Positions 44,123 to 57,764 of a stretch of DNA of 64,000 nucleotides are shown here, in pieces. A program made the translations under genes and the position numbers. The notes beneath the pieces are model-generated. The model ran no database searches, was not told where the DNA came from, and worked only from the letters and a program-made list of their open reading frames with translations. Each line of letters opens with the position of its first letter. Position 1 is the first letter of the stretch. Source of the DNA: Roseateles sp. SL47 (GTDB lineage Bacteria; Pseudomonadota; Gammaproteobacteria; Burkholderiales; Burkholderiaceae_C); assembly GCF_026625885.1 (NCBI RefSeq), contig NZ_CP113068.1, positions 1,240,001 to 1,304,000 of the forward strand, written 5' to 3'.

Positions 44123-44469
44123 TGCTGGGGGACTCCATTCAAGCGACGCCACGCGGGCGACAGAAAAAGCAAAACCCCGGACGCTTGGGACGGCCAGGGC
44201 CCTTCGGGAACCATGCAAATCACGCGGGAGTCTATGACAGCGCATGCAAGGGCCGTACCGGCATTTGCCCTGAAAGCATCGGAGAAAACTGATATCGCAC
44301 TTCGGTTGTTCCTGTGCGAGGTGGTCGCCATGCGCCCAATCCTGACAAGGGCTTGGGCAGGCCTGCGGTCGTTGAGGGTTGTTGGCATGGTCAAGGCCGG
44401 TAGCCGCCCCTAGACTGCGCGTTTTCCCGCGCACGGTCATTTGTGCCTGTTTTTGAGGATGGTTTTTCG
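44123..44469. other. Divergent promoter region of the peptide transporter locus
   Basis: About 350 bp between the permease operon (minus) and the first binding-protein gene (plus). Both promoters must lie here. GAGGATGG at about 44454-44461 is a plausible ribosome site for the binding protein. No repeat, gene or sure operator was recognised. Confidence 0.4.
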
Positions 44470-46333
44470 ATGCAACGCATGACGGCCTCGACCCGAGGCC
44501 TGGCCACGGCCCTGATCTTCGGTTTTTCGTCCACCTTCGCGCAGGTGCCGCCAGTGGTGCCAGTGGCGCAAGTGGAGCCTATGGGGGCCGCTTCGTCCGT
44601 GAGCGGCGCGCCGGTTGCGGTGGCGGGTCCGGAGAAGGTGCTGCGCGTGGCCATGCGGGTGGCCGAGACAGGGTTCGACCCGGCCTATGTCACCGACCTG
44701 TATTCGCGCAACCTGGTGGCCAACATGTTTGATGCCCCGCTGCGCTACAGCTATCTCCAGCGACCCTATCAACTGGAGCCGTCCGTCACCGACGGCATGC
44801 CCGAGGTGCTGGACAACGCCACGCGGTTCATCTTCCGCATCAAGCCGGGCATCTACTTTTCAGACGACCCCGCCTTCAAGGGCAAGAAACGCGAGCTGAC
44901 CGGCGCCGACCTCATCTATACGCTCAAGCGGCACTATGACCCGGTCGTCAAGAGCGGGCATCTGTATCGGCTGCAGGGCGCCGGCATTCTGGGTCTGGAT
45001 GAGGTGCGCAATGCTGCCTTGAAGGGCGGCAAGCCGTTCAACTACGACCAGGCGGTGGAGGGCCTGCGCCTGGTGGATCGCTACACCGTCGACATCCGTG
45101 TGCGCAACAGCGACCCGCGGTTCATCTACCACTTTGCCGACCCGATGCTGAGCCTGATGGCCCGCGAGGTGGTGGAGACCTACGGGGACCGGGTGGGCGA
45201 GCATCCGGTGGGCACCAACGCCTGGGTGTTGTCGCAGTGGCGGCGGTCGTCGCAGATCGTCTTCACGCGCAATCCCAACTTCCGCGAGGTGTACTACCAC
45301 GAGCCTGTGCCGACGGAGCGGCCGGTACTGGCCGAGCAGGTCAAGCGTCTGCAGGGGCGGCGTCTGCCGATGGTCGACCGTGTGGAGATCTCGGTGATCG
45401 AAGAAAGCCAGCCGCGCTGGCTCTCCTACCTGCGCAAGGAGTTCGACCTGCTGGACGACCTGCCCAATGAATTCGCACCGGTCGCCATCCCGCAGAACAA
45501 GCTCGCGCCCAACCTGGCCAAGCAGGGCCAGCGCGCCATCCGCTACGAGCGGGCGGACGTGACCATGAGCTACTTCAACATGGAAGACCCGGTGGTGGGC
45601 GGCTACACCCCGGACAAGATCGCGCTGCGCCGTGCCATTGCACTGGCGGTGAATCAGGATGAGCAGATCCGTCTGCCGCGTCGCGGACAGGCCGTGCCGG
45701 CGCAGGGCATCATCTCTCCGGGCGTGTTCGGCTATGACAAGCAGCTGAAGTCCGAGATGGGCGAGTTTGACCGTGCCCGCGCCAAGGCCCTGCTCGATCT
45801 CTATGGCTATGTGGACAAGGACGGCGACGGCTGGCGCGACCTGCCGGACGGCAGCCCGCTCACGCTGGAATACACGACCGAGCCCGACGCGAGAAAGCGC
45901 CAGCTGGCCGAGTTGTGGCAGAAGAACATGACCGCCATCGGCGTGCGCATGCGGTTCAAGATCGGCAAGTGGCCGGAAAACCTGAAGGCGGCCAATGCGG
46001 GCCGCTTGCAGATGTGGGGCCTGAGCTGGGGCGCGGACATTCCGGACGGTGAGAACTTCCTGGGCCTGGCGTATGGCCCCAGCAAAGGCCAGTCCAACAA
46101 GTCGCGCTTTGATCTGCCGGAATACAACCGCCTGTTTGAGCAGCAGCATTCCATGCCGGATGGTCCGGAACGGCTGGCGCTGATGCAGAAGATGCAGCGC
46201 ATGGCGGTGGCCTACATGCCGTTCAAGGCAGAGACCCATCAGGTGTTCACCGACCTCGCCCACCCCTGGGTGATCGGCTACGACAAGAACCTCTATCAAC
46301 GCGACTACTGGGCCTATGTCGATATCGATACCG

Positions 46334-46362
<29 letters not shown>
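44470..46362 (+). CDS. Family 5 extracellular solute-binding protein, copy 1
   Basis: A 630-residue periplasmic binding protein of the SBP_bac_5 (peptide/nickel) family. A signal peptide ('TRGLATALIFGFSSTFAQ') is followed by a Val/Pro/Ala-rich linker of ~35 residues. The mature domain starts 'KVLRVAMRVAETGFDPAYVTDLYSR'. Family features are 'FRIKPGIYFSDDPAFKGKKRELT', 'HPVGTNAWVLSQWRRSSQIVFTRNP' and 'NMEDPVVGGYTPDKIALRRAI'. It is longer than DppA (535) and closer to YejA-type proteins. Where copies 2 and 3 have 'PVGTGPF' it has 'PVGTNAW', suggesting a different ligand pocket. The start has a GAGG-type Shine-Dalgarno. It should feed the adjacent YejBEF-like transporter. Confidence 0.9.
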
Positions 46363-48358
<1,996 letters not shown>

Positions 48359-48370
48359 CCCCGCACTTGC

Positions 48371-50356
48371 ATGATGCCTCGCCCGAAGCTGCTGCCATCG
48401 ATCGTCCGCCCCACCGCGCGCCTTGGCGGTCTTTGCTTGGGGGCCGTTGCACTGGTGATGCTGGGCTTGATGCTGATGGCGCCATCGCCGGCCGCGCGGG
48501 CCAGTGCAAGCGAGGCCACGAGTGTCCCAGGCCCTGCGACCGCCGGGGCCACGACCTCCGCCACCATGACGCCCGGGACCATGGCGCCCGGGACCACGGC
48601 ACCCGGCAACACCACGCCCCACCACCCCCGCGAGAAGGTGCTGCGTTATGCCTTCCTGGTGGCGGAAAGCACCCTGGACCCGGCTCAGATCAGCGACCTC
48701 TATTCGCGCGCCGTCACGGCCCATATCTTCGAGTCGCTCTACAACTACGACTACCTGGCCCGCCCCTACAAGATCAAGCCCAACACGGCGATGGCCATGC
48801 CGGAGGTGACGGACAACTTCCGCACCTGGACCATCCGGCTGCGGCCGGGCCTCTATTTCGCGGACGATCCGGCCTTCAAGGGCAAACGCCGGGAATTGAC
48901 GGCCGAGGACTATGTCTACAGCCTCAAGCGCTTCTTTGACCCGGCGGTGAAGTCACCGATGTATTCGAGTTTCCGGCAGGAGGGCATCAAGGGCCTGCAG
49001 GCCATGCGCGACGAGGCCCTGAAAAGTAAGAAGCCTTTCAACTATGACCGGCCGGTGGAGGGCGTGAAGGCGCTGGACCGCTACACGCTGCAGTTCAACC
49101 TGGAAGCGCCGCGGCCGCGCTTTCTCTACAACCTGGCCGGGGGCGACACCTACGGCGCCGTGGCGCGCGAGGTGGTGGAACACTACGGGGCCAGCATCGG
49201 TGAGCATCCGGTGGGGACGGGGCCTTTCCAGCTGGAGAAATGGCGGCGCAGTTCCTTCCTCCGGCTGGTGCGCAACCCGGGCTTTCGGGATGTGCGTTAT
49301 GACGCCGAACCCAATGCGGATGATGCCGAGGGCCAGGCGCTGCTGGCGCGTTTGAAGGGACGCCGCCTGCCGATGGTGGATGCGGTGGAGATCAGCATCA
49401 TCGAGGAACTCCAGCCGCGCTGGCTGTCTTTCCTGAACCGGGAATTCGACCTCATCTACACGCTGCCGGAGGAATATGCGGACATTGCGCTGCCGCACGG
49501 CAAGCTGGCGCCCAACCTCGCCAAACGCGGCATGCATCTGCATCGGGTGCTGGCCAGCGACCGGCACTTGTACTACTTCAACATGGAAGATCCGGTGGTG
49601 GGCGGGTACACCCCTGAGAAGGTGGCCCTGCGCCGGGCGATTGGTCTGGCTACGGATGTCGAGACGGAGATCAACCTGGTGCGGCGGCATCAGGCGATCC
49701 GCGCGCAGTCGATCGTCAGCCCGATGACCTGGGGTTACGACGAGCAGTACCGGTCGGAAAACGGTGAGACGGACCTGGCGCGTGCCAAGTCCTTGCTGGA
49801 CACCTATGGCTATGTGGACAAGGACCGTGACGGCTGGCGCGACATGCCGGACGGCAGCCCGCTGGTGCTGGAGCTGGCCTCGACGCCGGATTCCAAGACC
49901 AAGCCTTACGACGAGCTGTGGAAGCGCAACATGGACCGGCTGGGCATCCGTCTGAAGATCCAGATGGCGCGCTGGCCGGAGAACCTCAAGGCGGCGCGTG
50001 CGGGGCAATTGCAGATCTGGCAACTGGGCTTCAACAACTCCACGCCGGATGCGCAGTTGAGTCTGGAGCTGGTGTACGGGCCAGCTTCCGGCGGTCAGAA
50101 CCTGGGGCGTTTCAAGCTCGAGCGTTTTGATGAGATCTATCGCCAGATGCTGGTGCTGCCGGATGGGCCGGAGCGGCTGGCGCTGCTGCGTGAAGCCCAG
50201 CGGCTGCTCACGGCCTACATGCCGCAGAAGTACCGCGTGCATCGCATGGTGATCGACATCAGCCAGTCCTGGCTGATCGGCTACCGGCGGCCCTTCTTCA
50301 ATCAGATGTTCTGGCAATACGTCGACATCGATACGGAGCAGCAGCCGAGGTTCTGA
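48371..50356 (+). CDS. Family 5 extracellular solute-binding protein, copy 3
   Basis: A 661-residue paralog of copies 1 and 2. The signal peptide is 'RLGGLCLGAVALVMLGLMLMAPSPAARA'. A Thr/Pro/Gly/Ala linker of ~40 residues contains three repeats of the M/T-x-PGT type. The mature domain begins 'KVLRYAFLVAESTLDPAQISDLYSR', with Ser-Thr-Leu in place of Thr-Gly-Phe of the others. 'HPVGTGPFQLEKWRRSSFLRLVRNP' and 'NMEDPVVGGYTPEKVALRRAIGLA' are conserved. It starts 12 nt behind copy 2. Three large binding proteins for one permease suggest an extended range of peptide or other ligands. Confidence 0.9.
   Translation: MMPRPKLLPSIVRPTARLGGLCLGAVALVMLGLMLMAPSPAARASASEATSVPGPATAGATTSATMTPGTMAPGTTAPGNTTPHHPREKVLRYAFLVAESTLDPAQISDLYSRAVTAHIFESLYNYDYLARPYKIKPNTAMAMPEVTDNFRTWTIRLRPGLYFADDPAFKGKRRELTAEDYVYSLKRFFDPAVKSPMYSSFRQEGIKGLQAMRDEALKSKKPFNYDRPVEGVKALDRYTLQFNLEAPRPRFLYNLAGGDTYGAVAREVVEHYGASIGEHPVGTGPFQLEKWRRSSFLRLVRNPGFRDVRYDAEPNADDAEGQALLARLKGRRLPMVDAVEISIIEELQPRWLSFLNREFDLIYTLPEEYADIALPHGKLAPNLAKRGMHLHRVLASDRHLYYFNMEDPVVGGYTPEKVALRRAIGLATDVETEINLVRRHQAIRAQSIVSPMTWGYDEQYRSENGETDLARAKSLLDTYGYVDKDRDGWRDMPDGSPLVLELASTPDSKTKPYDELWKRNMDRLGIRLKIQMARWPENLKAARAGQLQIWQLGFNNSTPDAQLSLELVYGPASGGQNLGRFKLERFDEIYRQMLVLPDGPERLALLREAQRLLTAYMPQKYRVHRMVIDISQSWLIGYRRPFFNQMFWQYVDIDTEQQPRF
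48566..48610 (+). repeat. Three tandem 15-bp units in the third binding-protein gene
   Basis: ATGACGCCCGGGACC, ATGGCGCCCGGGACC and ACGGCACCCGGCAAC follow each other and code for the PGT-type linker repeats. The frame is preserved. Confidence 0.9.
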
Positions 50357-50475
50357 CCGGCTCTGCGCAGGCAGGGGAAACGGTCCGCCCTGAGCGCACG
50401 GCGCGGCATCGCGCCCGTCCCCGAACCATCCCCACGCTCCCACTTCTGCTCCCCGCCAGGGCTACACTGCCCGCC

Positions 50476-50589
50476 ATGTCCACCTCCTTCGCAACGCCGC
50501 TGCTCCTCGCGGGGCTGCAGACGTCGCCATGCCGACGCTTGTGCCCGCGCCTCAGGCCTTTGCGTGTGCGCTGCCGCGCTGTGGCCTGA
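50476..50589 (+). CDS. Possible 37-residue mini-ORF upstream of glrK
   Basis: An ATG eight bases behind a TACACT element (50463-50468) opens a frame of 37 codons that stops by a TGATG overlap with the chosen glrK start. The product is Leu/Arg/Cys-rich without a domain. It may be a coupling leader for glrK, or it may be chance; the longer glrK start at 50529 would overlap it. Confidence 0.25.
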   Translation: MSTSFATPLLLAGLQTSPCRRLCPRLRPLRVRCRAVA

Positions 50590-52040
50590 TGTTTGGCTTC
50601 TTTCGCATTTCCTTCCGCCAGGTCCTGCTGATCGGCTTTCTGCTGATTGCCGGGCTGTTGTCGGCCGCATCGCTTGGTGCGCTGCTCACGCTGGAACGGC
50701 TGACGGTGCAGGGCCGCGAGGCCGTGCTGCGCGCCGCGCGCATGGGCAACGAGGTGCAACAACTGGCCGAGCGCAGCGTGAGCCTGGAGCGTGCGGCTCG
50801 CCAATACCTGGTGCTGGAAGACCGCAGCCTGCGGCAACGCTTTGAAGACGATGCCGAAGACGCCGAGCGGCTGCTGCAGCAACTGCGCGCCCAGGCCCTC
50901 CATCCCGAATCCCTCGACGCCTGGGCCGCCAAGCTCGCCGAGATCCGCAACCTGCTGGATATCGCCGTCAAACCCGGCCCCGCCCGCCGCAAGGAAGCCG
51001 ACCTCACCGCCAAGTTCCGCGAGCTCAGCGCCCTCACCGCCCAGTTGGGTGACATGGTGCGGCAGCACACACAACAGAGCAACGGCTCGCTGCAGGACCA
51101 ATTGGAGAGCGGGCGGGTGAAGCTTGGCCAGCAGGTGCTGGGTGCCATCGGGCTGTCGGTGTTGCTGGCCCTGGCCTTCGGCTTCTGGCTCACCCGTCCG
51201 CTGCGTCGCCTGGAGCAGGCCATCGTCCGATTGGGCGAAAACCGGCTGGAAGAGCCGATCGACTTCCGCGGCCCGGCCGACTTGCAGTCGCTCGGTCAGC
51301 GTCTGGACTGGCTGCGCCTGCGCCTGGGCGAGCTGGATGCTGACAAGGCGCGCTTCCTGCGACACATCTCGCATGAGCTGAAAACGCCGCTGGCGGCCCT
51401 GCGGGAAGGCGTGTCACTGCTGGAAGACGAAGTGGCCGGCGCCCTCAACGACAAGCAGCGCGAGGTGGCCCGCATCCTGCGGGACAACACCGCCGTGCTG
51501 CAGCGGCAGATCGAAGACCTGCTGCGCTTCAACGCCGCCGCCTTCGAAGCCCGCCGCCTGCAACGCCAGCCCACCGAGCTGGCCTCGCTGATCCAGGGCA
51601 CCATCCAGGCACAGCGCCTGCAATGGCAGGCCCGCGACCTGCGCATTACCGTCGAGGGCGGTCCGCAGGAGATCGAGGTCGATCCGGACAAGCTGGGCGC
51701 CGCATTCGGCAATCTGCTCTCGAACGCGATACGCTTCGCCCCGCCGGGGGGTGGAATCCGCTTTGAACTGTCGCGGCGGGACGGCCATTTGCTGATCGAC
51801 CTGAGCGACGACGGTCCCGGTGTCGCGCCGGCCGATCACGCCCGGATCTTCGAACCCTTCTACCGAGGCGAACGCCAGCCGGAGGACGCCCTGCGCGGCA
51901 CCGGCATCGGCTTGTCCATCGTCAAGGAGTACATCGCCGCGCACGGCGGGCAGATCGAACTGCTGCCTTCCGAGCGGGGTGCCCATTTCAGAATCAGCCT
52001 GCCATGCAGCCACACGCATCTTCCTCCCGCCCACGCCTGA
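50589..52040 (+). CDS. glrK: Sensor histidine kinase GlrK (QseE)
   Basis: A 483-residue membrane kinase. Helix 1 ('VLLIGFLLIAGLLSAASLGALL', about 11-32) and helix 2 ('LGAIGLSVLLALAFGFWLT') enclose a helical periplasmic sensor ('RSVSLERAARQYLVLEDRSL' is the four-helix type seen in QseE). A HAMP domain follows. The H-box is 'FLRHISHELKTPLAALREGVSLLEDE'. The N-box 'LLSNAIRFAPPGGG', 'DDGPGVAPADHARIFEPFYRG' and 'GTGIGLSIVKEYIAAHGG' complete the ATPase. The downstream lipoprotein and sigma54 regulator give the QseE-QseG-QseF arrangement. The ATG at 50589 begins 'MFGFFRISFRQVLLIG', a normal N-terminus. It overlaps qseG by 37 nt. Confidence 0.9.
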   Translation: MFGFFRISFRQVLLIGFLLIAGLLSAASLGALLTLERLTVQGREAVLRAARMGNEVQQLAERSVSLERAARQYLVLEDRSLRQRFEDDAEDAERLLQQLRAQALHPESLDAWAAKLAEIRNLLDIAVKPGPARRKEADLTAKFRELSALTAQLGDMVRQHTQQSNGSLQDQLESGRVKLGQQVLGAIGLSVLLALAFGFWLTRPLRRLEQAIVRLGENRLEEPIDFRGPADLQSLGQRLDWLRLRLGELDADKARFLRHISHELKTPLAALREGVSLLEDEVAGALNDKQREVARILRDNTAVLQRQIEDLLRFNAAAFEARRLQRQPTELASLIQGTIQAQRLQWQARDLRITVEGGPQEIEVDPDKLGAAFGNLLSNAIRFAPPGGGIRFELSRRDGHLLIDLSDDGPGVAPADHARIFEPFYRGERQPEDALRGTGIGLSIVKEYIAAHGGQIELLPSERGAHFRISLPCSHTHLPPAHA

Positions 52041-52609
52041 CCCTGACCCCGGTCGCGGCCAGCCTGTTCCTGCTGATGGCGGGCTGCGCGCCCCTGCCGC
52101 CCAAGACCGTGGTCCGGGAAGTGCGCGTGGAGGTGCCGGTGCAGGTGCCCACGGTGAGCCCGGCGGACGCCGCCGCTCGCCATTTGCTGGCCTATCACGA
52201 TCGCATCCGCCAGATGGGCACGGCCGAGCTGGCGCAGGAACTGCTGCCGCGTGACGATGCCAATCTGCCAGCCGCCACCGCCGTACCGCTCGCGCTGGCG
52301 TTGATGACCAACCACGCCCCGGGTGAGCTGGCGCGCGCGCAAAACCTGCTGGAGCAGGTGCTGCGCCAACCCGACACCGGCGACTGGAAGCCGCTGGCGC
52401 AACTGCTGCTGGACCGGCTGGTGGAACAACGCCGCCTGGAAGATCAGGCCGACAAGCTCAACCAGCAGCGGGCCAGCCTGCAGCAGCGCCTGGACCAGGC
52501 CAATCAGAAGCTGGAGGCCCTGAAGGCGATTGAACGCAGCCTGGTGGCCCCACGCCCTGGGGCGCCGTCACCGGCCGCCAGCGCGCCGGCCAGCGGGGCT
52601 TCGAAATGA
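52004..52609 (+). CDS. qseG: QseG-like lipoprotein of the Glr system
   Basis: A 201-residue lipoprotein with signal and lipobox 'LFLLMAGCAPLPP' (Cys about residue 28). The periplasmic part has 'HLLAYHDRIRQMGTAELAQEL', a tetratrico-like helical region and a C-terminal coiled coil ('ADKLNQQRASLQQRLDQANQ'), ending in an Ala/Pro/Ser tail. Its place between glrK and glrR is that of QseG, which in enterobacteria binds QseE and stimulates signalling. The identity rests on position and lipoprotein type more than on strong motif similarity. It overlaps glrK by 37 nt and glrR by 4 nt. Confidence 0.75.
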   Translation: MQPHASSSRPRLTLTPVAASLFLLMAGCAPLPPKTVVREVRVEVPVQVPTVSPADAAARHLLAYHDRIRQMGTAELAQELLPRDDANLPAATAVPLALALMTNHAPGELARAQNLLEQVLRQPDTGDWKPLAQLLLDRLVEQRRLEDQADKLNQQRASLQQRLDQANQKLEALKAIERSLVAPRPGAPSPAASAPASGASK

Positions 52610-53970
52610 CCGGTGCACGCCTGCTGCTGGTCGATGACGATGCCGACCTGCTCAAGCTGCTGTCGATGCGGCTGGACGCGGCCGGGTATGACGTCACCGC
52701 CGTGACCTCCGCCGAGGCGGCGCTGACCCATCTGGCGGTGCAGCGGCCAGCCTTGGTGCTGAGCGACGTGCAATTGCCCGGCATGGACGGGCTGGCCCTG
52801 TTCGACGCCATCCGCGAACGGCATCCCGCCCTGCCGGTGATCCTGCTCACCGCCCACGGCACCATTCCGGATGCGGTCCAGGCCACCGCCCGCGGGGTCT
52901 ACACCTACCTCACCAAACCCTTCGACGGACGGGCCCTGCTGGACACCATCGCCCAGGCGCTGGCGCTGACGGCGCCACAAGGTGATGCGCAGGACCATGG
53001 CGACACGGCCTGGCGCGAAGGCATCGTCAGCCGCTCCAACATCATGGCCGAGGTGCTCGCCGAAGCGAAGCTGGTGGCGGCCTCACAGGCCAGCGTGCTG
53101 ATTCGTGGTGAAAGCGGCACGGGCAAGGAACTGCTGGCCCGCGCCATCCACGCCGCCAGCCCCCGGGCCGGTAAACCCTTTGTGGCGGTGAACTGCGGCG
53201 CCATTCCGGAGGCGCTGCTGGAGTCCGAGCTGTTTGGCCATGTGAAGGGCGCCTTCACCGGGGCGGTGAGCCACCACCGAGGCCTGTTCCAGGCCGCAGA
53301 CGGCGGCACGCTGCTGCTGGACGAAATCGGCGACATGCCGCTGCCGTTGCAGGTGAAATTGCTGCGGGTGCTGCAGGAGCAGCAGGTGCGGCCAGTGGGG
53401 TCCAGCGAGTCGGTACCGATCGACGTCCGAATCCTGTCCGCCACGCATCGGGATCTGGATGTGGCCATGGCCGAAGGCCTGTTCCGTGAAGATCTCTATT
53501 ACCGGCTCAATGTGGTCAGCCTCACAGTGCCCAGCCTGAGCGAGCGCCGCGAAGACATTCCGCTGCTGGCCCAGCACCTGCTCACGCGCCTGGCCACCAA
53601 ATACAACAAGCGCCTCAACGGCTTTGCGCCGGAAGCGCTGAAGGCGTTGAGCATGGCCACCTGGCCGGGCAACGTCCGCCAGTTGCACAACGTGGTGGAG
53701 CAGGTGTCGGCGCTGGCCACCTCACCGCTGATTCCGCTGTCGCTGGTGCAGCGGGCGCTGCGGGTGCCCAGCATGGAGGTGCTGAGTTATGCGCAGGCGC
53801 GGGAGCGCTTTGAACGCGAGTACCTGGTGGGGCTGCTGAAGCTCACGGACGGCAATGTGGCGGATGCGGCACGCCTGGCGGAGCGCAACCGCACAGAGTT
53901 CTACCGTTTGCTGCAGCGCAATGGCCTGAACCCGGGGCTTTTCCGGGCCGATCCGCCTGTCGCCGAATAG
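52606..53970 (+). CDS. glrR: Sigma54-dependent response regulator GlrR (QseF)
   Basis: A 454-residue NtrC-family activator. The receiver has 'LLVDDDADL', the phospho-acceptor Asp54 in 'VLSDVQLPGMDG' and Lys in 'YLTKPFDG'. The AAA+ domain has Walker A 'IRGESGTGKELLARAIH', the sigma54-contact loop 'VKGAFTGAVSHH', Walker B 'GTLLLDEIGDMPLP' and the R-finger region 'FREDLYYRLNVVSL'. The Fis-type HTH at the end ('GNVADAARLAERNRTEFYRLL') is typical of GlrR. The last codons contain one of two predicted GlrR binding sites for the opgG promoter. In E. coli GlrR activates glmY and rpoE with sigma54. Confidence 0.92.
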   Translation: MTGARLLLVDDDADLLKLLSMRLDAAGYDVTAVTSAEAALTHLAVQRPALVLSDVQLPGMDGLALFDAIRERHPALPVILLTAHGTIPDAVQATARGVYTYLTKPFDGRALLDTIAQALALTAPQGDAQDHGDTAWREGIVSRSNIMAEVLAEAKLVAASQASVLIRGESGTGKELLARAIHAASPRAGKPFVAVNCGAIPEALLESELFGHVKGAFTGAVSHHRGLFQAADGGTLLLDEIGDMPLPLQVKLLRVLQEQQVRPVGSSESVPIDVRILSATHRDLDVAMAEGLFREDLYYRLNVVSLTVPSLSERREDIPLLAQHLLTRLATKYNKRLNGFAPEALKALSMATWPGNVRQLHNVVEQVSALATSPLIPLSLVQRALRVPSMEVLSYAQARERFEREYLVGLLKLTDGNVADAARLAERNRTEFYRLLQRNGLNPGLFRADPPVAE

Positions 53971-53975
53971 CGACA
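53958..53975 (+). promoter_or_regulatory. GlrR-type enhancer site 1 (TGTC-N10-GACA)
   Basis: TGTC at 53958 and GACA at 53972 with ten bases between them match the E. coli GlrR consensus exactly. It overlaps the glrR stop codon and is centred about 163 bases before the predicted opgG transcription start. Confidence 0.7.
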
Positions 53976-54023
53976 CGGAAAAATTCAATGAAATCAACGG
54001 CTTGGAACAATCGGCCGCAGATC

Positions 54024-54041
54024 CGTCGCTGAGCGGCGACA
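54024..54041 (+). promoter_or_regulatory. GlrR-type enhancer site 2 (CGTC-N10-GACA)
   Basis: One mismatch (C for T) from TGTC-N10-GACA. It is centred about 98 bases before the predicted opgG start and 66 bases from site 1, close to six helical turns. Confidence 0.65.
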
Positions 54042-54072
54042 CATGAACCGGCAAAATTGCCTACATCTTTTG

Positions 54073-54085
54073 TAAGTCGTTGATT
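54073..54085 (-). promoter_or_regulatory. IHF binding site
   Basis: AATCAACGACTTA on the minus strand matches the IHF consensus WATCAA-N4-TTR at every fixed position. It lies between the two enhancer-like sites and the sigma54 promoter, where IHF bends DNA at such promoters. Confidence 0.65.
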
Positions 54086-54103
54086 TATAAGCGTTAAGTT
54101 GCG

Positions 54104-54119
54104 TGGCACGGGGGTTGCT
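54104..54119 (+). promoter_or_regulatory. Sigma54 (-24/-12) promoter of opgGH
   Basis: TGGCACGGGGGTTGCT fits the sigma54 consensus TGGCACG-N4-TTGCW at every position, with GG and GC ten bases apart. The start of transcription would be near 54130, three bases before the opgG ATG. Confidence 0.85.
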
Positions 54120-54132
54120 TTAACCCCGGTAC

Positions 54133-55665
54133 ATGCGTACATCTGCCCCCACCCTCACCTCCCGATACGCCGGCCTGCTCATGGGCGCGGCGCTGCTGCT
54201 TCGCTGCGCTGCAGCACAGGCATTCGGCTTCGATGATGTGGCCGAGCGTGCACAGGCGTTGGCCGCCAAGCCTTATCAGCCGTCCACCCAAAGCCTGCCT
54301 GCAGAGCTGAAGAACCTGGACTATGACGGCGCGCGTGACATCCGCTTTAAGCCGGCCCGCGCGCTCTGGCGTGAAGACAAGCTGCCCTTCGAGGTGATGT
54401 TCTTCCACCTGGGTCACTATCAGACCGAGGCGGTCCGCATCAATGAGATCAACAACACGGTTGCCCGTCCGCTGCCATTCCGCAAGGACGACTTCGACTA
54501 CGGCAAGAACAAGCTGTCTCCCCAGAAGTGGGGCGACCTGGGTTATGCCGGCTTCCGTGTCCACTACCCGCTGAACAACAACGGCTACAAGGACGAGCTG
54601 GTCGTTTTCCAGGGCGCCTCTTATTTCCGTGTGCTGGGTGCCGGCCAGCACTATGGGCTGTCGGCCCGTGGCCTGGCCATCGACACCGTCGGCGGCAAGG
54701 GCGAGGAATTCCCCCGTTTCACCGAGTTCTGGATCGAGCGCCCTGCGGCCGATGCCAAGGCCCTCACCATCTATGCGCTGCTGGACAGCAAGAGCGTGAG
54801 CGGGGCCTACCGCTTTCTGGTGCAGCCGGGCGCCGAGACGGTGGTGGACGTGAAGGCCCGCATCTTCCTGCGCTCGCCGGTGGCCACGCTGGGCCTGGCC
54901 CCGCTCACCAGCATGTTTCTCTTCGGCGAGAACCAACCCCAGGTCGGCGACTTCCGTCCGGAAGTGCATGACTCCGACGGCCTGATGGTCCACAGCAGCA
55001 CCGGTGAATGGATCTGGCGCCCGCTGATGAATCCGAAGGGCATCTTCACCACGTCCTTTGGCCTGCCGGGCGTCCGTGGTTTTGGCCTGATGCAGCGGGA
55101 CCGCCGGTTCGCCAGCTACGAAGACGTGGAAGCCCGTTATGAGAAGCGGCCTTCCACCTGGATCGAACCGGTGGGGGACTGGGGTCCGGGCCGTGTGGAG
55201 CTGATGCAACTGCACACACCGGATGAAACCCACGACAACATCGTTGCCTACTGGGTGCCTGCCCAGCAGCCGGCGCCGGGCCAGCCGCTGGACTTTGCCT
55301 ACAAGCTGCACCAGCAGGGCGATGACCCGCAGCAGCGTCCGCCGGGGGCCTGGGCGGTGCAGACCCGTACCGGCTACAGCTACGCCAAGCTGGCCGCCAA
55401 CGAGGTTCAGTACATCGTTGATTTCGAGGGCCCGTCCCTCAAGGCCCTGCCGGCCAACGCCGAGGTCAAGGCCCAGCTGAGCACCAACGCCAACGGCCAG
55501 ATCAGCGAAGCCAACGCCTATCCGAACCCGGCCACCGGTGGCTGGCGGATGACGGTTCGCGCCAAGCAACTCCGCCCCGGGCAGCCTCTTGAGCTGCGCG
55601 GCTTCCTGCAACACGACCACAACGTTCTGACTGAAACATGGAGCCTCGTATTACCTCCCCAATGA
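54133..55665 (+). CDS. opgG: Periplasmic glucan biosynthesis protein OpgG (MdoG)
   Basis: A 510-residue periplasmic protein needed for osmoregulated periplasmic glucans, the usual length for OpgG. A signal peptide ('YAGLLMGAALLLRCAAAQA') precedes the mature start 'FGFDDVAERAQALAAKPYQ'. Conserved stretches are 'LDYDGARDIRFKPARALWRED', 'FEVMFFHLGHYQTEAVRINEI', 'GYAGFRVHYPLNNNGYKDELVVF' and 'HSSTGEWIWRPLMNPKGI'. No Shine-Dalgarno precedes the ATG; together with the sigma54 promoter only a few bases away this suggests a leaderless message. A later ATG (54181) would spoil the signal peptide. The stop overlaps opgH. Confidence 0.95.
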   Translation: MRTSAPTLTSRYAGLLMGAALLLRCAAAQAFGFDDVAERAQALAAKPYQPSTQSLPAELKNLDYDGARDIRFKPARALWREDKLPFEVMFFHLGHYQTEAVRINEINNTVARPLPFRKDDFDYGKNKLSPQKWGDLGYAGFRVHYPLNNNGYKDELVVFQGASYFRVLGAGQHYGLSARGLAIDTVGGKGEEFPRFTEFWIERPAADAKALTIYALLDSKSVSGAYRFLVQPGAETVVDVKARIFLRSPVATLGLAPLTSMFLFGENQPQVGDFRPEVHDSDGLMVHSSTGEWIWRPLMNPKGIFTTSFGLPGVRGFGLMQRDRRFASYEDVEARYEKRPSTWIEPVGDWGPGRVELMQLHTPDETHDNIVAYWVPAQQPAPGQPLDFAYKLHQQGDDPQQRPPGAWAVQTRTGYSYAKLAANEVQYIVDFEGPSLKALPANAEVKAQLSTNANGQISEANAYPNPATGGWRMTVRAKQLRPGQPLELRGFLQHDHNVLTETWSLVLPPQ

Positions 55666-57764
55666 GCGCCGGCCACGCCGGCCCGGCGGGCGCAAGCGCT
55701 CCGCCGGTCAACCGTGGTGCCATGGTGCCGCGTCCGTGGTTCAGCCCTGCTCCTGTTGAAGGGGCACTGCCTGCGGCGCCGCAACTGGCCCCCTGGGAAC
55801 GCGCCGCCCACCGTCGGCGCCAGGCCTTGATGTTGTCCATCGGTGCCGCCACGACGCTGGCCACCGGGGTGCTGCTGCACACGCAAGGCGGATGGGCCAC
55901 CCCAGGTCTTCCGCTGCTGCTGCAGTGTCTGCATCTGAGTCTGTTTGTGTTGCTGTTTGCCTGGGTCAGTGCCGGCTGCGTGACCGCCGTCATGGGCTTC
56001 TGGGTCCAGTTGCGCGGTGATCGTCATGCCCTGTCAGCCGATCAGGCCGGCCACGGGCCGATCAGCGCGGACGCCCGTACCGCCCTGGTGATGCCGATCT
56101 GCAATGAAGATGTCACCACCGTCTTCGCCGGCCTGCGGGCCAGCTGCGAGTCGCTGGCGTCGGCAGGGGCCCTGCGTCTGTTCGACGTCTACATCCTCTC
56201 CGACAGCAGTGACCCGGAATGCCGCACGGCCGAGCTGGCCGCCTGGGCTGAGCTGCGCGAGCAGTTTGCCGGCCAAGGGCGCATTCACTATCGCTGGCGT
56301 CAGCGCCGGGTGAAGAAGAAGGCCGGCAACGTGGCCGACTTCTGCCGCCGCTGGGGCCGCAACTACCGCTACATGGTGGTGCTGGATGCCGACAGCGTGA
56401 TGAGCGGCGACTGCCTGCTGACCCTGGTGCGCCTGATGGAAGGCAACCCGCGCGCCGGCATTCTGCAAGCGGCCAATCAGGTCTGCGGTCACGAGACGCT
56501 GCATGCCCGTGCGCAGCAGTTCGCCAGCCGTGTCACCGGCCGTCTGTTTGCCGCCGGCATGCAGTACTGGCAGCTGGGTGAGGCCCACTATTGGGGCCAC
56601 AACGCCATCATCCGCGTCGAGCCGTTCATGAAGCATTGCGCCCTGGCGCCGCTGCATGGCAAGGACATCATGTCCCACGACTTTGTCGAGGCGGCCCTGA
56701 TGCGCCGTGCCGGTTATCAGGTGTGGCTGGTACACGACCTGGTGGGCAGCTACGAGCAGCAGCCGCCGCATCTGCTGGCCGAGCTGCAACGTGACCGCCG
56801 CTGGTGCCAGGGCAACCTGCAGAACCTGCGTCTGGTGGCCGAACCCGGCCTGCATTCGGTGCACCGTGCCATGTTGGTGACCGGCGCCCTGTCCTACTTC
56901 GCCGCGCCCCTGTGGCTGCTGTATGTGTGCCTGGGGGCGCTGCTGTGGAACGTGGGTGGCAATGACGCTTTCCATCCGTTCACACCGGAAGGCAAGCTGG
57001 CACCAGGTGTGCTGGCCCTGTGGCTGGGCACCATCGGCATGTTGACGCTGCCGCGTCTGCTGTCGGTGGGTGCGGTGCTGCTACGCCGTGAGCATGGACA
57101 GTATGGCGGTGTGCTCAAGCTGCTGGGCAGCAGCGCGGTGGAAGCGCTGATGGCGCTGCTGCAGGCGCCCCTGCGCATGGTCGCGCACAGCATCTTCTGT
57201 CTGGTGGCCGTCACCGGCATCTCGCTGGAGTGGAAGTCGCCCCCGCGGGCAGCGCAGGACGTGTCCTGGAAGGAAGCTCTGGCGGCCTTCGGTCGTCCTG
57301 GCCTGATGGCCCTGGCGGTGGCTGCGGTCCTGGCGGTGCTTCGTCCTTCCACTGTGCTGTGGATCGCGCCGATCGCGCTGCCGCTGATGTTGGCCGCACC
57401 GATCATCGTGTGGACCAGCCGTGCTCGCCTCGGGGCTCGTGTGCGCCAACTGGGCCTGCTGCTGATCCCCGAGGAGAGCCGCACGCCCACGGTGCTGCGT
57501 CATGCCTGGGCCTATGGTCAGCAGAGCCGTCATTTGCCGGGCTGGACCGACATGCTGAAGAACCGTCATCTGCTGGCCCTGGCCTGCCAGGCGATGGGCC
57601 GGCGTGACACCGGCCGTGGGCTGCGGGCGCATGTGCGGGACCTGCATCTGTCGCGCATTGCGATGCTGCCGGGTGCCCTGCACACCCTGGCCGCCAATGA
57701 GCGGATGCGCTTCCTGAGTGAACCCAGCCACTTGCTGCGCCTGAGCCAGCTCAAGGCGGCTTGA
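55662..57764 (+). CDS. opgH: Glucans biosynthesis glucosyltransferase OpgH (MdoH)
   Basis: A 700-residue inner-membrane GT2 glycosyltransferase that builds the beta-1,2 glucan backbone from UDP-glucose. Two N-terminal helices lead to the cytoplasmic catalytic domain with 'ALVMPICNEDVTTVFAGL', the DxD-type 'MVVLDADSVMSG', 'GKDIMSHDFVEAALMRRAGY' and the QxxRW motif in 'LQRDRRWCQGNLQNL'. About five or six helices follow. The ATG at 55662 overlaps the opgG stop (ATGA), which suits translational coupling; an ATG at 55638 is also open. E. coli OpgH is longer (847 residues), while many betaproteobacterial forms are close to this size. A terminator follows. Confidence 0.95.
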   Translation: MSAGHAGPAGASAPPVNRGAMVPRPWFSPAPVEGALPAAPQLAPWERAAHRRRQALMLSIGAATTLATGVLLHTQGGWATPGLPLLLQCLHLSLFVLLFAWVSAGCVTAVMGFWVQLRGDRHALSADQAGHGPISADARTALVMPICNEDVTTVFAGLRASCESLASAGALRLFDVYILSDSSDPECRTAELAAWAELREQFAGQGRIHYRWRQRRVKKKAGNVADFCRRWGRNYRYMVVLDADSVMSGDCLLTLVRLMEGNPRAGILQAANQVCGHETLHARAQQFASRVTGRLFAAGMQYWQLGEAHYWGHNAIIRVEPFMKHCALAPLHGKDIMSHDFVEAALMRRAGYQVWLVHDLVGSYEQQPPHLLAELQRDRRWCQGNLQNLRLVAEPGLHSVHRAMLVTGALSYFAAPLWLLYVCLGALLWNVGGNDAFHPFTPEGKLAPGVLALWLGTIGMLTLPRLLSVGAVLLRREHGQYGGVLKLLGSSAVEALMALLQAPLRMVAHSIFCLVAVTGISLEWKSPPRAAQDVSWKEALAAFGRPGLMALAVAAVLAVLRPSTVLWIAPIALPLMLAAPIIVWTSRARLGARVRQLGLLLIPEESRTPTVLRHAWAYGQQSRHLPGWTDMLKNRHLLALACQAMGRRDTGRGLRAHVRDLHLSRIAMLPGALHTLAANERMRFLSEPSHLLRLSQLKAA

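Follow-up and report, generated by a model that had tools for sequence, protein, structure and literature searches.

A candidate GlrR-dependent sigma54 promoter ahead of the periplasmic glucan operon opgGH in Roseateles and related Burkholderiales

The response regulator gene glrR lies directly upstream of the glucan biosynthesis genes opgG and opgH in a 64,000-nucleotide stretch of DNA from Roseateles sp. SL47 (contig NZ_CP113068.1, positions 1,240,001 to 1,304,000, forward strand; hereafter the window). Our data suggest that the gap between glrR and opgG is a GlrR-dependent sigma54 promoter for opgGH, a reading to which we assign a probability of roughly 0.87. GlrR control of opgGH had been put forward in a sequence-only reading of the window. 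It is supported by the co-occurrence of the promoter module with an upstream glrR in relatives and by an upstream activating sequence (UAS) pattern shared with E. coli glmY.

Promoter elements and their rarity

The sequence-only reading had placed four elements in the glrR-opgG gap. A sequence check and a pattern scan recovered all of them, using the sigma54 and integration host factor (IHF) consensus patterns. In window coordinates, the elements are:

53958..53975, no strand assigned: UAS1, an exact TGTCGC-N6-GCGACA (TGTCGCCGAATAGCGACA) that overlaps the glrR stop codon (53968-53970)
53992..54004, plus strand: IHF-consensus site between UAS1 and UAS2, a full match in the scan
54024..54041, no strand assigned: UAS2, CGTCGC-N6-GCGACA with one mismatch (CGTCGCTGAGCGGCGACA), 66 bp from UAS1
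54073..54085, minus strand: IHF-consensus site between UAS2 and the promoter, a full match (AATCAACGACTTA)
54104..54119, plus strand: sigma54 -24/-12 promoter, a full match (TGGCACGGGGGTTGCT)
54131, plus strand: predicted transcription start (+1), 2 nt 5' of the opgG ATG

Some details of the earlier description changed. The palindromes, given there as TGTC-N10-GACA and CGTC-N10-GACA, are correctly placed, and their arms in fact span 6 bp around a 6-bp loop. UAS1 is not wholly between the genes, as the strictly intergenic stretch is 53971-54132. The IHF site at 54073-54085 was confirmed, though not as the only one: the site at 53992-54004 had been missed. Relative to the form TGTN12ACA, UAS1 is exact and UAS2, which begins CGT, is one base off; both are conserved in relatives. 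The predicted +1 was set at position 28 of the -24/-12 element, where the annotated 5' end of E. coli glmY RNA falls. With +1 at 54131, UAS1 is centered at about -165, the additional IHF site at -133, UAS2 at -99, and the IHF site next to the promoter at -52. Neither a terminator nor a sigma70-like promoter was found in 53800-54250.

This combination is rare. Across the 6.39 Mb genome, the exact UAS 18-mer pattern has a single occurrence, before opgG, so no other gene, rpoE included, has a UAS of strict form. The exact -24/-12 sequence (TGGCACGNNNNTTGCW) occurs three times (control, 0). TGTC-N10-GACA followed 115-145 bases on by TGGCA-N6-TTGC occurs only here (control, 0), and joining TGTC-N10-GACA to a sigma54 core likewise returned this locus alone (gaps of 55-85 and 115-145 bases covered). 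Among 2000 dinucleotide shuffles of 53938-54170, with up to two mismatches allowed in each element, 23 contained a UAS, 35 contained a -24/-12 element, and none contained both at the correct spacing.

A wider GlrR regulon in this genome was considered and rejected, since UAS sites with at most one mismatch (43) did not exceed the reversed-pattern control (72). When the flanks of 15 of these 43 sites were inspected, a -24/-12 element (up to two mismatches) lay 20-350 bases downstream only for the two opgG UASs. The looser TGTC-N10-GACA gave 107 sites versus 65 in the control, and further weak GlrR sites may exist elsewhere. Under strict patterns, no clear target other than opgGH emerged in this genome. 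Signs of glrK autoregulation were not found: the 50200-50600 region upstream of glrK held no -24/-12 element with three or fewer mismatches, and its sole UAS-like site, at 50310, has three mismatches.

Conservation across opgG loci

We compared 110 opgG loci, comprising the best 80 of 323 relatives in named genomes and 30 from a survey of 250 genomes of the order, the window's own locus included. Roseateles terrae and R. depolymerans are among the nearest named relatives by OpgG (92-93%). An upstream glrR accompanies opgG in 34 loci (own included). The other 76 showed none in the upstream stretch examined, and for these 400 bp 5' of opgG were scanned (less in L079). A full module was defined as two UASs (up to two mismatches) 60-70 bp apart with a -24/-12 element (up to two mismatches) 70-170 bp further on.

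The full module was present in 29 of 34 loci with upstream glrR and in 0 of 76 without. Any UAS was found in 34/34 versus 9/76, and any -24/-12 element in 32/34 versus 22/76. As the -24/-12 element alone turns up in 22 loci without glrR, it is the combination that discriminates; one UAS plus a -24/-12 element was seen in 1 of the 76 (L003). Conservation in relatives that keep glrR beside opgG, on which the sequence-only reading had staked its claim, therefore held. No two of the 34 glrR-opgG gaps are identical.

Within 12 close loci of Roseateles, Mitsuaria, or Paucibacter type (the window's included), invariant columns were concentrated in the elements: 11 of 12 in the UAS1 arms, 10 of 12 in the UAS2 arms, 9 of 11 fixed sigma54 positions, 9 of 13 in the IHF site at 53992-54004, and 8 of 13 in that at 54073-54085. 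Outside the elements, 1 of 94 columns was invariant. UAS2 lies past the glrR stop codon in 34/34 loci. The idea that UAS1 also does so in many relatives, and would thus be evidence of non-coding constraint, proved wrong: in 30 of 34 loci UAS1 runs into, or sits inside, the 3' end of glrR, so its conservation could in part be coding. Among the other four, the GlrR match of L032 ends prematurely.

Spacing was compared in 69 modules (29 at opgG and 40 from the survey of glrR-downstream regions described below). UAS1 and UAS2 are separated by 63-69 bp. The distance from UAS2 to the -24/-12 element ranges from 70 to 160, in groups about 10.5 bp apart (clusters at about 71, 81, 93, 102, 112, 123, and 135, with one at 160). 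Such grouping by helical turn is the pattern expected from a DNA loop that needs one face of the helix. The helical-phase p of 0.0002 overstates the phasing: it takes 25 distinct distances to be independent, which neighboring integers within a clade are not.

Several loci differ in arrangement. In Acidovorax sp. SRB_14 (L058, 1-7542), which has no GlrR match in the locus, opgG retains a -24/-12 element with its ATG at position 28; a UAS was not found in the 400 bp 5' of opgG, as though a rearrangement had severed the enhancer. In genome G011, opgG does not adjoin glrR and is preceded by one UAS, a -24/-12 element, and a leader bearing a Shine-Dalgarno sequence (L003). The glrR of the same genome is followed by one UAS and a -24/-12 element before a glycine-zipper gene (L258). 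GlrR acting on a distant opgG is possible in G011, judging from these sites. A more divergent GlrR (62-63% identity) is encoded convergent to opgG in L028 and L030, directly 3' of opgH-opgG.

The UAS pattern and E. coli glmY

Passages of PMC6075780 describe glmY, encoding the small RNA (sRNA) GlmY, as a GlrR/QseF target in E. coli and report that QseF binds three UASs upstream of it, with consensus TGTN12ACA and assistance from IHF. The E. coli glmY upstream region contains TGTCGCTTTCTGGCGACA at -197, which is TGTCGC-N6-GCGACA, the 18-mer pattern of UAS1. It also contains TGTCTC-N6-GCGACA at -134 and TGTC-N10-GACA at -230. The C-terminal helix of GlrR is nearly identical in the window (RNRTEFYRLLQRN) and in E. 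coli (RNRTEFYKLLSRH). The IHF consensus found no site in the scanned E. coli glmY stretch and is thus not a sure guide.

Genes behind glrR in the order

GlrR (E ≤1e-130) was found in 102 of the 250 genomes and OpgG in 38. We surveyed 100 of 109 glrR-downstream regions, from 95 genomes. The full module was present in 41 of 100, and at least one UAS with a -24/-12 element in 60 of 100. Control stretches 1 kb further on had no module (0/98). By these patterns the module is not opg-specific; the sequence-only reading had not noted this, nor the probable absence of an opgG mRNA leader (see below). Its cargoes include BON (OsmY-like), EF-hand/BON, glycine-zipper, and CsbD genes as well as opgH or opgGH. 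A BON-domain open reading frame (ORF) occurs in 25 of 100 regions, as detected with a local profile derived from six of these ORFs; Pfam BON was confirmed in three checked, and the OsmY model matched one at E 2.4e-18, below cut-off. OpgH occurs in 7 of 100 regions (MdoH above cut-off in the four checked) and OpgG in 1. Pfam matches supported the glycine-zipper cargo in three checked and CsbD in one checked. In G042 the gene order is glrR, opgH, histidine kinase, a small ORF without a Pfam match, and opgG.

A GlrR tree of 61 rows places the opg cargoes together, nested among BON-cargo lineages. Its rows are 30 GlrR-survey sequences, the E. coli protein, and 30 adjacent loci out of 34; of the remaining four, L048 was too short and L001, L002, and L015 are represented by their GlrR-survey copies. 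All opg cargo on this tree amounts to one change, on a branch with an SH-like approximate likelihood-ratio (SH-aLRT) support of only 80. From this nesting, the module is probably older than its glucan link. A separate gain of the opgH-only cargo in G171 and G204 was rejected: both fall inside the opgG clade, which makes loss of opgG likelier.

DUF1328, suggested as a cargo by a Pfam match in L214, was also rejected, as the -24/-12 element before it lacks a UAS, the pair of UASs being located further on. L206 (G231) and L214 (G167) share this arrangement, with a UAS-less -24/-12 element before a small gene, between glrR and the later UAS pair. The small gene in L206 is similar by eye to the L214 DUF1328 gene.

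Start codon position and a predicted leaderless mRNA

With -24/-12 sites of up to three mismatches allowed, the opgG ATG occupies positions 28-31 of the element in 28 of 34 loci (17 at 28, one at 29, nine at 30, and one at 31). As glmY RNA starts at this place, the opgG mRNA should be leaderless. The predicted leader is 2 nt in the window and 0 in most Comamonadaceae loci seen. From its promoter geometry, the opgG mRNA thus seems to start almost at the start codon. The sequences that follow an ATG at 28-31 look, by eye, like signal peptides. Cargo opgH genes behave similarly, with an ATG at 28 or 29 in 6 of 7 and an in-frame GTG at 30 in the seventh (G171). In 23 of 25 BON cargoes, in contrast, the start lies at 49-105 and is accompanied by a Shine-Dalgarno match of 4-7 bases; no candidate emerged in the remaining two. 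This comparison picked the start with the best Shine-Dalgarno and so favors the contrast. Leaderlessness does not extend to the genome's other two exact sigma54 sites. At L127 the ATG lies about 20 bases beyond the predicted start and follows an AAGGAG, and at L128 no ATG is found close to the predicted start.

A missing Shine-Dalgarno sequence was rejected as proof, since a match of more than three bases is absent also from 48 of 75 opgG starts without glrR. The argument therefore rests on ATG position. The regulation could be as proposed while translation begins at the in-frame ATG at 54181 (position 78), or while a longer upstream transcript provides a leader; we consider this unlikely, though it is the alternative to be taken most seriously. 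True leaders exist in six of the 34 loci (L015, L040-L043, and L074), and the lack of a detected terminator between glrR and opgG fits a longer transcript. Set against this, the start at 54133 yields a signal-peptide n-region (by eye), the ATG is held at 28-31 while adjacent bases vary, and L038, L052, L072, and L102 offer no other in-frame ATG, GTG, or TTG up to about query residue 36.

Short inverted repeats were noted after the -24/-12 element in L160, L163, L165, L167, and L176 and before opgG in L040-L042. They lie just past the predicted start in leadered cargo mRNAs; their sequence varies while pairing seems to be kept (by eye).

Weighing the evidence

Several observations count against a GlrR-dependent promoter for opgGH. 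The first base of UAS2 deviates from TGTN12ACA, and part of the UAS1 conservation could stem from the end of glrR. A lone -24/-12 element is common in loci without glrR (22 of 76), and a lone UAS occurs in 9 of them. Five of the 34 adjacent loci lack the strict module: L049, L050, L074, and L102 have unusual UAS spacing, L074 also has no -24/-12 site at two mismatches or fewer, and in L046 that site has three mismatches. With many relatives among them, the 34 loci do not count as independent events. At the thresholds used, 40 of 100 glrR-downstream regions lack a UAS with a -24/-12 element. The GlrR and QseG matches in the window both fall below NCBIfam cut-offs. Readthrough from glrR into opgG may also occur, given that no terminator was found.

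The sigma54 promoter and UASs could be real and used by another enhancer-binding protein, for example of NtrC or PilR type. More such proteins are likely in the genome (a GlrR search gave 152 first-look candidates, of which 6 were scored). We regard this as improbable, as the module tracks upstream glrR, persists behind glrR even with non-opg cargo, and carries the 18-mer pattern of the region upstream of E. coli glmY, where QseF binds.

Given the GlmY precedent, the promoter might instead chiefly make a GlmY-like sRNA, with opgGH downstream by chance, and at least one module-bearing glrR region (L249) has no ORF of 55 aa in our scan. This too is very improbable, and we rejected it: the window has no Rfam match, the opgG ATG 2 nt from the predicted start (and at 28-31 in most relatives) leaves no room for an sRNA, and opgH or BON genes directly follow in other genomes.

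Conservation of the palindromes for some other cause, such as an RNA hairpin or the glrR coding overlap seen for UAS1, is the least probable account, as UAS2 keeps its arms past the stop codon, UAS spacing is fixed with helical phasing to the promoter, no terminator-like site was found in 53800-54250, and E. coli glmY has the same 18-mer pattern far from glrR coding.

Gene neighborhood

The genes flanking the promoter, all on the plus strand, are:

50529..52040: glrK (qseE), sensor histidine kinase with HAMP, HisKA, and HATPase_c domains
52004..52609: qseG-like outer-membrane lipoprotein gene (NF007997 QseG, E 1.6e-6, far below the curated cut-off)
52606..53970: glrR (qseF), sigma54-dependent response regulator (NF011695 GlrR, E 9.4e-184, 611 bits)
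54133..55665: opgG (mdoG), periplasmic glucan biosynthesis (PF04349, E 2.2e-198; start codon position conserved)
55638..57764: opgH (mdoH), glucosyltransferase (NF003960 MdoH, 924.7 bits, above the cut-off of 829)

For GlrR, the family was the top match of 112, at 611 bits against a curated cut-off of 763. The protein has receiver and AAA+ (PF00158) domains, a GAFTGA loop, and a DNA-binding C-terminus. The qseG-like product matches the YfhG lipoprotein family (PF13942) slightly below cut-off and has an N-terminal LLMAGC lipobox (by eye). For glrK, none of the 25 NCBIfam models listed out of 78 attained its cut-off, and the name follows from gene order, 5' of the qseG-like gene and glrR. The opgH start overlaps the opgG end, and the tandem forms the osmoregulated periplasmic glucan (OPG) synthesis operon opgGH. 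The genome has two sigma54 (rpoN) genes (G000:C1:1466211-1466669 and 5036327-5036797). Upstream of glrK, 44443-50356 holds three similar ORFs in tandem; of these, the second carries an AQ repeat close to its N-terminus, and the third belongs to the family 5 solute-binding proteins.

Proposed mechanism and significance

In the model we propose, an envelope signal would act through GlrK and the QseG-like lipoprotein, leading to phosphorylation of GlrR. GlrR would then bind UAS1 and UAS2, and IHF would bend the DNA at one or both of its predicted sites. The GlrR ATPase would open RpoN polymerase at 54104-54119, and opgG-opgH would be transcribed from about 54131, with opgG read from an mRNA with essentially no leader and glucan synthesis presumably affected in turn. 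The exchange of genes downstream of a single promoter points to a GlrR that, in this order, controls one envelope/osmotic-stress effector, which may help to find the signal. On balance we favor, with some reserve, the broader view that in Burkholderiales GlrKR works as a local envelope-stress switch with close to a single target. The GlrR/IHF/sigma54 module behind glrR, phased by helical turns, would serve swappable envelope effectors, and with glucan cargo the start codon would have moved onto the transcription start to give a conserved leaderless mRNA.

To our knowledge, a transcriptional on-switch of OPG synthesis in these bacteria has not yet been described. If the proposal is true, such a switch becomes testable, and the conserved sigma54 promoter with its leaderless mRNA would offer a natural system in which to test leaderless translation in a betaproteobacterium.

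Searches of open-licence PubMed Central (PMC) papers found nothing that joins QseF to opgG or GlrR to mdoG, and nothing for leaderless together with opgG. Judged by title, none of the papers matching sigma54 with 'glucan biosynthesis protein', or 'osmoregulated periplasmic glucan' with RpoN, concerned such control, and none matching opgGH, two-component, and transcription concerned GlrR. GlrR with OsmY returned only fluoride work in E. coli, by its abstract. Among the matches listed, no title described a sigma54 promoter yielding a leaderless mRNA. The main text of a sigma54 regulon survey (PMC12316311) contains none of 'glucan', 'GlrR', or 'QseF', and 'opgG' is in neither PMC12194929 nor PMC8895600 in the parts available to us. 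The latter notes QseE/QseF in beta-proteobacteria in such a passage.

Comparison with known systems

The closest known system is E. coli glmY with QseE/QseG/QseF and IHF. Both share the kinase-lipoprotein-regulator gene order, the UAS 18-mer pattern, and a -24/-12 promoter, with IHF sites predicted by consensus here. They differ in target (a glucan-synthesis protein operon here, an sRNA there), in promoter position (behind glrR here, before glrK there), and in UAS number (two, 66 bp apart, here and three there). Here, the start codon also falls at the predicted transcript start. Passages of PMC6075780 report that QseF activates the E. coli rpoE P2 promoter as well. Our locus would resemble it as a GlrR/QseF-type sigma54 promoter in envelope homeostasis that serves a different gene. 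If so, the glucan operon becomes a direct structural target of GlrKR, whose known roles in E. coli lie in sRNA and rpoE control.

Sinorhizobium meliloti has 171 natural leaderless mRNAs, as stated in passages of PMC3616915. An AUG at the 5' end, predicted here, is common to both. In our case it would arise at the sigma54 promoter of one operon over several genera. Two-component systems have also been tied to periplasmic glucans in enterobacteria, where, by the titles and opening abstract lines of PMC7013093 and PMC6218677, OPGs affect Rcs and EnvZ-OmpR signaling. There the glucans act on signaling; here the synthesis operon itself would be under a sigma54 activator. What appears new is the target, opgGH, and the arrangement of a known type of regulator, GlrR.

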